Positions 29,201 through 35,204 of a DNA stretch of 35,896 bases are shown here, in pieces. The stretch is from Ignavibacteriae bacterium HGW-Ignavibacteriae-3 (GTDB taxonomy: Bacteria; Bacteroidota; Ignavibacteria; Ignavibacteriales; Melioribacteraceae). The stretch covers positions 1 to 35,896 of the forward strand of contig PGYS01000016.1 in the NCBI GenBank assembly GCA_002839795.1, written 5' to 3'. The position numbers were made by a program, and so were the translations under genes. Position 1 is the first letter of the stretch. Each line of letters starts with the position of its first letter. The notes beneath the pieces were generated by a model, which did not search any database, was not told the origin of the DNA, and saw only the letters and a program-made list of their open reading frames with translations.

Positions 29201-31270
29201 CTAATCGTTAATCCTGAATTTTTTGTCGCCGGTTAACTCTTTGCCGAAATATTTTTTGTAGAGTTCAAGATATTTTTTCTGCAGTTCAGGTGATACTTTT
29301 TTGCCGTCAATCACCATTTCATCTTTTGATAGAGTGAAATCCTCTAATTCGTCACGATCGTTCAGCAGCTTATCTTTAACCATTTCACTCTTTGCTGCAT
29401 GAATGAAGTCTTTTAATTTTTTCATCTCTACTTTCAGATTGGCCATGTTTCCTTTTAAATCTTCCATGCTCTTCTTAAAAGCATCACTGCCGGGCCCGTT
29501 CTTTTTCATCTCCTCTTTAAACCGCTCCATTTCCTCTTTAAATTCTTTATTCTCAAAGCTCCATTTTTCCATTTCTTTTTTGAACTTTTTACTCCACTCT
29601 TTCATTGACTCCCGGAACTCTTCCTTATTAAAAGACGAATCGGTGCAATCATTATTAAATTTTCTAAAGTCCATTTTTGGAATATGAACAGGCGGAATCT
29701 TTAAATGGCGGCCGGACAGGCCCATTTGAACTTTCCTCTCAACATCCCTCATGATTTTATTAATTTGGGCTGTATCCACGTCCGGAATTTCAATGTGGAC
29801 GTCAGGGATTTCAACATCGAAATCTAAATCATGGCCAAAGTCAAATTCATGTGTACCTCTGAATTTTTTCATTTTCTCCCTTAAATGTTTCATCTTTTCA
29901 CTGTGTTTTTTCATGCTCTCACGGTACTCTTTCATTGATGAATCGTATTCATTGAGACGTTCGTCGGCCATTTTTTCATATTTCGATAAATCTTCCGCGT
30001 CAACTTTATCTCCGTCGATATATAATTCGGCTAACTTGCCATCGTTAAAAGTGGCCTTATATTTTTTATTGTATTCAGGGAATTTAAGAATACGCCTTCC
30101 CTTTTTAATGAAAGTTGTATCGGATATTATCCCGCCGTCATTACCTATTTCATGAATTTCTGTGTCAGAGTTTATGAGAGAGACCGGATTTACAAATGAG
30201 GAATGTTTAATGGCCGGGGAATATTCCTTCGCCGACGAGTTAGAATATAAAGATGCGGCAAAGATCATAACAAGAAGAATTCCGAATGCCGCGAATTTTA
30301 ATCCATACGATATATTTTTGTTGTTAGAGTTCATTCTATTTATCCTCCTGAATAATTCATTTTTTCTTCCTATGGCTGCAAGAGCGAGTCCGTTCTCTTC
30401 AAGAGCAATCTGCTGAAGATTATATAGTGCTTTAAAATAAATCAGAGAACCGCCGCATAAATTTAAAGTCATATCATCGCAGCAATTCTCTCTTTCACTC
30501 CTGATAGTTGACGATATCCACCAGACCACCGGATGGTAGAAAAAGATAGTCTCAATAAATGCCTGGTACAGATTTATGAGAAAATCGTAACGCTTTATGT
30601 GGGCCAGTTCGTGAATAATAATTGCTTCTACCTGTTCCGGAGGAAGCCCGCTCAGCATTCCTGCCGGCAGCAGAATTACAGGCTTTAAGAAACCAATCGT
30701 AACGGGAGTTTTCACTTTAAACGACTCATATAATCTTACAAGCCGGTTAAAATTCATTTTTCGCGACAACGCGTCAATTCTCTTAATCCAGTATTCATCG
30801 GCAAATTCTCTTGCGCTTTTTCTTAGTCTCCGGACATATAAAACTCCGCCAAGAAACCGTAGTGAAAAAATGAAGAAGCCCGCAAACCACATCATTACAA
30901 TGAGAGATATATTGTGATCAAAGTATGATTTCAATGCTGACGCAATATCAAAACCCGGTTCAGGATTTATCCCGGATGGATGCATGGCAGTGTCAGATGC
31001 GGAATATGTGTTTGTGACAGGAGAACCCGTCTCTGTAAGTTCAGGGCCAGAAGTGTAAACGTAAATAAAAGTGAAAAGCGAAACGCCGAACATCAGCAGT
31101 AAAGCCGATGAAGAAAGTTTGTAGCGTAATTGTGAATTATTTCCACGGATCATTAACAATATAGAACCAAGTAAAATTGCGATTACTGTTCCCTGCCAGA
31201 TTGAGTGGAAAATTGTCCACCCTATAGCGCTTATCAATTCTTTAGGGATTAATTCGTTAATGAAGTTCAT
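29201..31270 (-). CDS. M56-family (BlaR1-type) membrane metallopeptidase with a long charged C-terminal tail
   Basis: The 689-residue protein has four N-terminal membrane segments (about 13-40, 55-73, 120-145 and 323-342) and a cytoplasmic-side M56 zinc-protease domain with HELAH at 220-224 and a conserved HPVVWW, then SERENCCDD around 259-266. In BlaR1 the C-terminal periplasmic part is a penicillin-binding sensor. Here residues 350-689 have no SxxK or KTG motif. Instead they form a Lys/Glu-rich helical stretch (with the words KEFKEEMERFKEEMKK and RESMKKHSEKMKHLREKMKK) and an Asp/Val/Ile-rich piece. The gene's ATG overlaps the blaI-like stop as ATGA. It probably cleaves the BlaI-like repressor. 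The signal is unknown. Confidence 0.8.
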   Translation of the reverse strand: MNFINELIPKELISAIGWTIFHSIWQGTVIAILLGSILLMIRGNNSQLRYKLSSSALLLMFGVSLFTFIYVYTSGPELTETGSPVTNTYSASDTAMHPSGINPEPGFDIASALKSYFDHNISLIVMMWFAGFFIFSLRFLGGVLYVRRLRKSAREFADEYWIKRIDALSRKMNFNRLVRLYESFKVKTPVTIGFLKPVILLPAGMLSGLPPEQVEAIIIHELAHIKRYDFLINLYQAFIETIFFYHPVVWWISSTIRSERENCCDDMTLNLCGGSLIYFKALYNLQQIALEENGLALAAIGRKNELFRRINRMNSNNKNISYGLKFAAFGILLVMIFAASLYSNSSAKEYSPAIKHSSFVNPVSLINSDTEIHEIGNDGGIISDTTFIKKGRRILKFPEYNKKYKATFNDGKLAELYIDGDKVDAEDLSKYEKMADERLNEYDSSMKEYRESMKKHSEKMKHLREKMKKFRGTHEFDFGHDLDFDVEIPDVHIEIPDVDTAQINKIMRDVERKVQMGLSGRHLKIPPVHIPKMDFRKFNNDCTDSSFNKEEFRESMKEWSKKFKKEMEKWSFENKEFKEEMERFKEEMKKNGPGSDAFKKSMEDLKGNMANLKVEMKKLKDFIHAAKSEMVKDKLLNDRDELEDFTLSKDEMVIDGKKVSPELQKKYLELYKKYFGKELTGDKKFRIND

Positions 31271-31650
31271 TTTCTTTCCTTCTCAATTTGATTCAACAAT
31301 TCTTTTATTTTTGTGAGCTCTTCCTTAGAAGGATTTGAATTTCCGAGAGCATGCAGTACAAGATTTGCGGCGGAACCGCTGAACGCGGTCTCAAGAAGTT
31401 TATCAAGCAGTAATTTCTGAATATCGTCCTTATTAATTGCGGCTTTATACACATGGCTTCTTTCATTTTCATTGCGCTCAACAAGATTTTTTTCAAACAT
31501 TATCTGGAGCATTTTTAAAGTTGTTGTATAGCCTGTTTCTTTTTTTTCATTTAACTTTTCATTGACCGCTTTAACGGTAGACGCACCGCCTTCCCATAAT
31601 ATCTGAAGAATTTCAAGTTCGGAGTCCGTCGGTTTCTGTTTCTTCGCCAT
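31267..31650 (-). CDS. BlaI/MecI/CopY-family transcriptional repressor
   Basis: The 127-residue protein starts MAKKQKPTDSELEILQILWE, has the winged helix of the BlaI family (TVKAVNEKLNEKKETGYTTTL) and a C-terminal dimerisation helix bundle. It is the partner of the M56 peptidase it overlaps by four bases (ATGA). Start: ATG 31650 behind a GAGGGTG ribosome site. The frame is open to 31689, but the extra 13 residues lie outside the family and lack a good ribosome site. A perfect palindrome upstream is a candidate for the operator. The controlled genes may be only this pair. Confidence 0.88.
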   Translation of the reverse strand: MAKKQKPTDSELEILQILWEGGASTVKAVNEKLNEKKETGYTTTLKMLQIMFEKNLVERNENERSHVYKAAINKDDIQKLLLDKLLETAFSGSAANLVLHALGNSNPSKEELTKIKELLNQIEKERK

Positions 31651-31693
31651 TCCACACCCTCTTGTTTTTCTGATACTTCTGACGCGCATCCTT

Positions 31694-32988: not shown

Positions 32989-34113
32989 TTATTTTTTTAG
33001 AATCGATGAGTTGTAATAATCAATAAATTTTTTAACATAAGGCGAATCGCTAAAATATGCATGAATGAGAACCGGACGGTCCATCTCGCCGATTTTTTCG
33101 GCAAGCTTCGCCAACCTGGTTTTTCCGCTTGTCCGTTCTGTTAAAGGATAGTAATGCAGGGGAATATCAAAAGTGCTGCACAACTTCGTTTCCTTGTTTG
33201 TCCATGATGTATCTGCGGGGTCCTCCGGATTAAAAAGGGAAACAATGTTCTTAAATGACCCGTTTAATATATAACCCACAAATTCATCGTCCGTAGGAAA
33301 AGGTGTAACATACACCCCTTCTTCTAATTTAATTATTTCACCCCTTTCAAATTTTCCCAGCTCCTCTATTGATCTTGAATTCAGATTCGATGCGATTTTT
33401 GCCGAACTATTTGTGATTTCAATAATCCGTTTGGCAAGATTAACACGGTCTTTTCCCAAATAACAGTGAACAAAATATTTGCCCCGTGCGCTTTGGCTAA
33501 GAGCCCTTAATTCATTAAGAGCTCCTTCGTTGGAGCTTATCCAGGGAAGCATGGGAATGTTGATAAGTTCTATGCCGACTCTTTCGCAGGCCTCTATCTC
33601 GTCTTTCAAAAGTTTTGGTTCGAATGGTACGACAGCTTCGTGCAGAAGACTAATTACAGCGGTAAAATTATTCTTCTTTAATTCCCGCAATTCATACTCA
33701 TCGGGATATTGACCAAAGACGAACTCTGTGCCGTCATTTTTAACCACGGCAGTATTTTTAATATCAGCCTGAATTAATTTAGGGTTAACCCAGAGCCATA
33801 CCGAAAATCCCGAAAGAGCAGCTAATACAAAAAAAACAAGAAATTTTTTGAAGTATCCTTCTGATAAGACCAGAAGCCGTGTTACGAAAAGAGCCGAAAT
33901 GAAGGAAATGATTACTAAGCCGACTATGATTCCTTTAACTAAAAGATCCTGATCAGATTGCGCCCAATTATGTTCTGCGGCATAATTTATAGCCCACCGG
34001 ACAGGCCCGATTAGTGTGAGAGTGCCTAAAAAATATCCGAGCGAAAGCCAGGACAACAGTAAATAAAATATGCTCTTAATATTAATTTCAAAAAATCTTT
34101 TACCAAATCCCAT
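32989..34113 (-). CDS. Membrane protein with tandem dual-specificity-phosphatase-like domains, second one degenerate
   Basis: The 374-residue protein has three membrane segments at about 14-37, 60-82 and 90-109, then two similar cytosol- or periplasm-facing domains. Domain 1 (about 128-235) has GKYFVHCYLGKDRVNLAKR, a full HCx5R signature with Cys217 and Arg223, the phosphatase loop of protein tyrosine/dual-specificity phosphatases; Asp in the FEP/LPW loop region may be the acid. Domain 2 (about 265-374) has VLIHAYFSDSPYVKKF in the same place, where the Cys is Ala352 and the Arg is absent. Start: ATG 34113, with AGAAGGA six bases upstream, preferred to ATG 34137. Substrate could be a phospholipid, inositol phosphate or protein. 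Confidence 0.75.
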   Translation of the reverse strand: MGFGKRFFEINIKSIFYLLLSWLSLGYFLGTLTLIGPVRWAINYAAEHNWAQSDQDLLVKGIIVGLVIISFISALFVTRLLVLSEGYFKKFLVFFVLAALSGFSVWLWVNPKLIQADIKNTAVVKNDGTEFVFGQYPDEYELRELKKNNFTAVISLLHEAVVPFEPKLLKDEIEACERVGIELINIPMLPWISSNEGALNELRALSQSARGKYFVHCYLGKDRVNLAKRIIEITNSSAKIASNLNSRSIEELGKFERGEIIKLEEGVYVTPFPTDDEFVGYILNGSFKNIVSLFNPEDPADTSWTNKETKLCSTFDIPLHYYPLTERTSGKTRLAKLAEKIGEMDRPVLIHAYFSDSPYVKKFIDYYNSSILKK

Positions 34114-34411
34114 CAGCTGTCCTTCTAATTTCGTCATTAAGTTTTAAGATATAATAAAAATAATAAATAGATTGTTAGTATGACAGAATGATTTCTTTTA
34201 ATTTATAATTTTAAAAGATGACCAACGCAGTGAATTTTAATTACGAACCTCCGGGAAAGAGAAGATAGGTTTCGCTGCGGAAGTTTTAATGAAAGAGGGG
34301 TTTTGGGTTAACGTGCATGGTTGATTCAAAAAAACATACTTAATGCTGTGCGGGGTTAATTTTATTTGAGGTAAAATTTTCAGTTCTTAACGATCAACTC
34401 GACATTCTCAA
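34114..34411. other. AT-rich spacer without a recognised gene
   Basis: This 298-base spacer lies between the anti-sigma gene and the phosphatase-like gene, both on the minus strand. I see no conserved reading frame, tRNA or strong terminator. The promoter for the phosphatase-like gene should lie in 34138-34200, which is very AT-rich. Confidence 0.4.
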
Positions 34412-34663
34412 TTATTCATTCAGTCCCAGGCATTCCATTAATCTGTTATGCGCGTCTTCGGAAATTGTAACGTTATATTTTTTATAGAACTCGATTGTAG
34501 TCTCAACAGATTTGAAATAATGGTTGCAGTTATCGCATTCCTCAATATGTTTCTTTATAAGAAGGCAGTTCGGCGATTCAAGTTCCTCCCCCAGATTATC
34601 GCAAATGTGAGCCATCACATCTTTACAAACCGGTTTTTCATTGTCCATATTTAAATCTCTCAT
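34412..34663 (-). CDS. Anti-sigma factor with zinc-binding ZAS motif
   Basis: The 83-residue protein holds HIEECDNC at about 39-46, the HxxxCxxC zinc-binding anti-sigma motif, with a further Cys near the N-terminus (VCKDVMAHI). No membrane segment is present, so it would be a soluble, possibly redox-sensitive, inhibitor of the ECF sigma factor encoded just upstream. The gene overlaps the sigma gene by 26 bases from ATG 34663. An in-frame ATG at 34648 with GAGAG upstream is a realistic alternative that shortens it by five residues. Confidence 0.75.
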   Translation of the reverse strand: MRDLNMDNEKPVCKDVMAHICDNLGEELESPNCLLIKKHIEECDNCNHYFKSVETTIEFYKKYNVTISEDAHNRLMECLGLNE

Positions 34664-35204
34664 TTAGTTCGTCTCTTAAAAATGCCCGCGCGCGGTGCAA
34701 TCTGGATTTTACGGCGGCCACAGTTAAATCGACCGCTTTCGCGGTTTCTTCCGTTGATAAACCTTCAACATCTCTCAGCATAAAAACAACCCTGTAATCT
34801 GCCGGCAGTTTTCCTATTGCTATGTCAAGAAATTCCCTCAGCTCATTGTTCTCTGCAATTTTATCAGGAGTAACTTTCCAGTCGGCAATACTTTTTTCGT
34901 CGATTACGGCGCTCTCGTCTTCAAAAGAGGTAAACTCATGTTTGCCTTGTGAACGCGCGAGCATAAGACAGTGATTTGATACAACCCGGTACAGCCATGT
35001 CGAAAGTTTTGACTGACCGCTGAACTGCTTTATGTTCTTCACCATGCTCAGAAATGTTTCCTGCATGGTATGCTCGGCTTTTTCTTTATTCCGGCAGATC
35101 TTAAATGAAAAATTATAAACAGTCTGTTCGTAAAGTTTTACCAGCTCTGCTAATGCTTTCTTGTTTCCGTTCTGCGCTTCTTCAATAAGTCTGAGTTCAT
35201 TCAT
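34638..35204 (-). CDS. ECF-type RNA polymerase sigma factor
   Basis: The 188-residue protein has sigma region 2 at about 20-90 (ALAELVKLYEQTVYNFSFKI, then STWLYRVVSNHC) and region 4 at about 128-180, with LPADYRVVFMLRDVEGLSTE and the helix-turn-helix AAVKSRLHRARAFLRDEL. This is the group IV (extracytoplasmic function) layout. It is transcribed with a partner anti-sigma of the ZAS type. The regulon and the signal are not evident from the sequence. It follows the DNA glycosylase gene by 23 bases, in the same direction. Confidence 0.9.
   Translation of the reverse strand: MNELRLIEEAQNGNKKALAELVKLYEQTVYNFSFKICRNKEKAEHTMQETFLSMVKNIKQFSGQSKLSTWLYRVVSNHCLMLARSQGKHEFTSFEDESAVIDEKSIADWKVTPDKIAENNELREFLDIAIGKLPADYRVVFMLRDVEGLSTEETAKAVDLTVAAVKSRLHRARAFLRDELNERFKYGQ

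Follow-up and report, generated by a model that had tools for sequence, protein, structure and literature searches.

The gene and its neighbours

The window, by which we mean the whole 35,896-nucleotide stretch of DNA analysed here, carries a reverse-strand gene for a membrane protein with two tandem phosphatase-like domains, D1 and D2 (Table 1). The longest reading of this open reading frame (32989..34137 (-)) encodes 382 amino acids, and residues are numbered here on that reading; subtracting 8 gives the numbering of the preliminary description, in which our Cys225 is Cys217. The start chosen in that description, at 34113 (Met9), is the likelier one, since the homologues L002 and L003 begin exactly at the residue matching Met9 and a ribosome-binding-like AAGGA lies upstream of its ATG.

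One neighbour of the gene is a convergent threonine synthase gene, and on the other side lies an ECF sigma factor/zf-HC2 pair. This pair is outside the locus that is conserved in relatives, and a functional coupling of the phosphatase to it was rejected as the relatives give it no support. Elsewhere in the window, at 29201-31689, a BlaR1-type M56 peptidase is encoded beside a BlaI/CopY-type repressor; for the peptidase protein's C-terminal half, the only matches are weak and coiled-coil-like.

Table 1. Positions in the window of the tandem phosphatase gene, its parts and its upstream neighbours
Feature	Position	Strand	Extent or residues	Evidence or remark
Tandem DSP-like membrane phosphatase gene	32989..34113	(-)	374 aa	Open reading frame and homologue starts
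N-terminal membrane anchor, three hydrophobic segments	33784..34113	(-)	9-118	Hydropathy, charge pattern, model helices
Domain 1 (D1), predicted DSP/DUF442 fold, candidate active phosphatase	33364..33756	(-)	128-258	Model pLDDT 75.8, Z 12.2 to 3gxg
D1 P-loop	33445..33468	(-)	H224-C225-Y-L-G-K-D-R231	Sequence; conserved in homologues
Domain 2 (D2), same predicted fold as D1, without Cys/Arg	32992..33351	(-)	263-382	Z 11.0 to 3gxh; homology to D1
ECF sigma factor and zf-HC2 protein	34412..35204	(-)		Upstream neighbours on the same strand, 275-298 bp away

Membrane anchor and domain organisation

Three membrane helices had been proposed to precede the phosphatase domains, and this agrees both with the three hydrophobic stretches seen in hydropathy analysis (at about residues 20-45, 62-90 and 95-118) and with the three helices of the full-length model (3-55, 60-90 and 95-117). 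Across nine homologues, positive charge is found in the N-terminus and in the loop between segments 2 and 3, the first loop being mostly neutral or negative. By the positive-inside rule, this N-in/C-out charge pattern would place the phosphatase domains in the periplasm.

The CX5R P-loop following a His is present in D1 and absent from D2. The D1 loop reads HCYLGKDR, with Cys225 and Arg231, and the D2 loop reads H359-A360-Y-F-S-D-S-P, with Ala in place of Cys and no Arg, exactly the intact and dead sites that had been pointed out from the sequence. The two domains are nevertheless homologous: their profile comparison (hhalign) gives a score of 37.4 (E 5e-6), where the best of 100 column-shuffled controls scores 18.4 and the reversed profile 14.1. 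Single-domain relatives from the same class match D1 and D2 much more strongly (scores of 117.9 and 94.5), which points to an ancestor with one domain that was later duplicated. The third domain found in some relatives aligns to D2 (score 34.4, maximum shuffle 16.6), and the same shuffle-controlled comparison gave no tie of it to D1.

Predicted fold and family assignment

The full-length model (AlphaFold2, two sequences) is poor, with a pLDDT of 57.9 and a pTM of 0.38, and for this reason TIM barrels and kinases stand side by side among its whole-chain Foldseek matches; we set these aside and used domain-level matches only. D1 modelled alone (pTM 0.73) has its best match in 3gxg_A, with an rmsd of 2.6 Å over 112 aligned residues, and lower matches include PRL-1, KAP, LSF2 and TpbA (Z 9.8 for TpbA). 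D2, which within the full-length model has a pLDDT of about 70-84 in most blocks, best matches 3gxh_B (rmsd 2.8 Å, 119 residues aligned). The domain models were built on shallow alignments, and since the alignment used for D1 contained D2 rows, the fold results for the two domains depend in part on each other. On these models both domains are predicted to have the DSP/DUF442 fold of the Cys-based DSP/PTP superfamily, so that structure prediction returns the phosphatase fold that the preliminary description had assumed, in the form of the DUF442 phosphatase 3gxg/3gxh. The hhalign score above the shuffles, the shared predicted fold and the invariance of H224, R231 and N233 among homologues together argue that the live/dead tandem does not arise by chance, and the original reading of one live and one dead domain can be retained, with the motif intact in D1 and lost in D2 and the fold a matter of prediction.

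Sequence libraries gave little to add to this. Pfam returned no family at cut-off and no DUF442 match, and its HTH_19 and DUF5337 matches were rejected as below cut-off. The sole NCBIfam match of note was Blh (NF040641; residues 139-235, E 4e-4, 19.3 bits vs a cut-off of 625), so that neither library assigns the protein to DUF442 at its curated cut-off. Searching PDB sequences with the single protein returned noise only, and profile searches of the same set gave sub-significant matches, of D1 to the glucan phosphatase LSF2 and the DUF442 protein 3gxg, and of D2 to NMA1982 (2f46), all of them proteins of the kind to be expected.

Homologues and constraint

Homologues are rare, being found in about 2-7% of sampled genomes across the phylum (10 of 395, three of them marginal), the class (10 of 391) and the order (11 of 164, with one match, G447, in an unrelated-looking open reading frame). 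Among near relatives 6 of 57 genomes have one, counting the window's own, and a scan of genome contigs found one partial relative (L008). No relative was found in plasmids, phages or viral contigs, and a mobile-element origin is therefore unsupported.

In the 11-row homologue alignment H224, R231 and N233 are invariant and D2 lacks its Cys in every row. HCYLGxDR is retained in nine of the rows, and also in G635. Cys225 is replaced only in G033 (by Ser) and G041 (by Glu), and these two group together with full support; the expectation that homologues keep the Cys-Arg pair of D1 thus holds for most of them and fails in this clade. The number of domains varies, with a third one, also without a CX5R motif, in G424, G427, G478, G033, G041 and G635, and a single domain with an intact motif in G407, G210 and G559. 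The G011 homologue (L004:942-2103) is split into two overlapping frames, which could be a real disruption or an assembly error.

Purifying selection is seen between G002 and G004, where dN/dS is 0.01 in D1, 0.11 in D2 and 0.13 in the membrane part; in the Cys-less pair G033/G041, where dS is near saturation, it is 0.33 for D1 and 0.14 for D2. Given that most other dS values are also close to saturation, only the ranking is usable. Judged by that ranking of coding-sequence change, there is no decay of D2, and the constraint on D1 appears to be relaxed in the proteins that have lost its Cys.

Genomic context in relatives

In nine relatives (G002, G004, G011, G177, G407, G424, G427, G478 and G635) the phosphatase gene lies inside a conserved locus, the core of which comprises a stand-alone receiver protein, a HEAT-repeat membrane protein and a GT2 synthase closest to PgaC/IcaA. 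Most of the loci also contain a gene for a YaiO outer-membrane barrel and one for a membrane-anchored protein of roughly 385 amino acids, scanned copies of which have no match in Pfam or NCBIfam, and some encode a sulfatase-fold enzyme of phosphoglycerol-transferase type. From its gene content, this set looks like a locus for exopolysaccharide synthesis and export, and our literature search found no description of such a receiver/HEAT/GT2/YaiO locus. Loci are located at L027:2111-9492, L032:5087-14459, L036:2007-6197 and L086:78-4959, and the roughly 385-aa protein is encoded at L027:7051-8217, L028:11578-12744, L035:10696-11850 and L086:3811-4959.

The association between phosphatase and locus is usual, not strict. 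G428 has a phosphatase fragment adjoining the YaiO gene, and in the congener G007 (L040:9847-12662) the locus is intact, and YaiO and the other usual neighbour have no phosphatase gene between them. The phosphatase gene of the window's own genome is not in a YaiO-type locus: this genome, which is 96% complete, has no homologue of YaiO, the HEAT protein or the roughly 385-aa protein, and its nearest GT2 is distant, at only 26% identity. G033 and G041 also lack the HEAT protein, the roughly 385-aa protein and a close GT2.

Proposed function and alternatives

The reading that we favour, and to which we give slightly better than even chances, is that of an inner-membrane, periplasmic tandem DSP/DUF442 protein with a live D1 and a pseudophosphatase D2, which in most relatives controls the exopolysaccharide machinery. 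The three-helix anchor would hold both domains at the periplasmic side of the inner membrane. D1 most likely works as a Cys-based phosphatase, which would remove phosphate with Cys225 as the nucleophile and Arg231 binding the phosphate, and D2, as a retained pseudophosphatase, may scaffold D1, bind a partner or act as a sensor. The target might be a periplasmic protein, dephosphorylated as TpbA does for TpbB, or the phosphate-modified polymer itself; the second option is a speculation that draws on the sulfatase-fold phosphotransferase encoded in some of the loci. The protein probably helps to control a surface sugar polymer.

It is not assured that D1 turns over substrate at all. Its general-acid loop (PMLPWISSN) has no visible Asp, and there is no conserved Asp in PMLPW-S-N of the homologues; the conserved Glu of PFE is a possible alternative to it. 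Val follows the P-loop Arg where Ser or Thr is usual. With the Asp missing and this Val in place, D1 may have slow turnover or serve for binding. Both domains might then be non-catalytic, with D1 a PRL-like phosphate-binding sensor or adaptor that binds a phosphorylated partner with little turnover; PRL phosphatases are among its fold matches, and H224, R231 and N233 are invariant even in the Cys-less G033 and G041. NMA1982, a related enzyme, works slowly, and a binding role has been suggested for it by its authors (PMC10716126), which makes a sensor role for D1 a serious rival. We nonetheless consider it rather unlikely, given that Cys225 is present in all homologues outside one clade, distant single-domain ones included, and that the D1 dN/dS of the Cys-bearing G002/G004 is so far below that of the Cys-less pair, allowing for the near-saturated dS of the latter.

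The favoured reading of a live D1 beside a dead D2 could also be extended, such that an undescribed family of periplasmic phosphatase/pseudophosphatase proteins regulates the YaiO-type machine, the dead domain or domains serving to sense, and the live domain to edit, the polymer or its phosphate modification, but we regard this fuller scheme as doubtful.

A lipid or envelope substrate had been suggested on the basis of the membrane anchor. The envelope part of this suggestion fits the predicted periplasmic location and the usual linkage to an exopolysaccharide-type locus, whereas a phospholipid substrate finds no support. It is improbable that D1 is an inner-membrane phosphatase acting on phospholipids or lipid carriers: Pfam, NCBIfam and PDB sequence/profile searches gave no PTPMT1- or PTEN-like match and the nearest folds are DUF442 and small DSPs, even if the protein is membrane-anchored and some linked loci have the phosphoglycerol-transferase-type sulfatase-fold enzyme, whose donor would be a phospholipid. 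The sole notable NCBIfam match, far below cut-off, brings to mind a sulfur transferase that handles persulfides, as does the DUF442 domain of Blh (a bifunctional sulfur transferase/dioxygenase), but this is very improbable for a domain with a full CX5R motif in the GKDR spelling and a conserved neighbourhood in which sulfur-oxidation genes were not recognised.

Comparison with known systems

Neither the fold nor the live/dead principle is new in itself. The pairing of live and dead phosphatase domains is known mainly from eukaryotes, where receptor PTPs such as CD45 and LAR combine a membrane anchor with an active D1 and an inactive D2. Their domains are classical PTP domains, cytoplasmic and attached to a single membrane helix, whereas those described here are small DSP/DUF442 domains that are predicted to be periplasmic, and the arrangement is convergent.

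The best predicted fold is shared with small Cys-based DSP-like domains, namely 3gxg/3gxh from Shewanella putrefaciens and NMA1982 (2f46). These DUF442 phosphatases are single-domain proteins, whereas the present protein has a membrane anchor and a tandem dead copy. NMA1982 further has a CX4R motif and a putative general-acid Asp71 (PMC10716126), in contrast with the CX5R motif of D1 and its lack of a clear Asp. A bacterial tandem of PTP-fold domains is also found in PhyAmm of Mitsuokella multacida, with PTP-like phytase repeats of differing activities, of which D1 is described as active with broad specificity (PMC3981807); it belongs to the phytase subfamily, and the part of that account used here makes no mention of a Cys-less repeat.

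The functional precedent is TpbA of Pseudomonas aeruginosa, a DUSP of the periplasm that dephosphorylates TpbB and in this way limits exopolysaccharide and biofilm (PMC4409338), and the likeness extends to the DSP fold, to the periplasmic location (predicted here) and to the exopolysaccharide tie. The single DSP domain of TpbA carries HCKHGNNR and Asp105, and the tandem, the three-helix anchor and the YaiO locus are lacking there. The combination of a DUF442-like tandem, a three-helix anchor, a predicted periplasmic location and a YaiO-type locus was absent from the family libraries and literature searched. It takes the live/dead pairing into another phosphatase subfamily and, as predicted, to the outer side of the bacterial inner membrane, where its usual link is with a little-studied polymer export locus. 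The natural series of single live, live plus dead, live plus two dead and entirely Cys-less proteins lets the contribution of a pseudophosphatase domain be tested directly.
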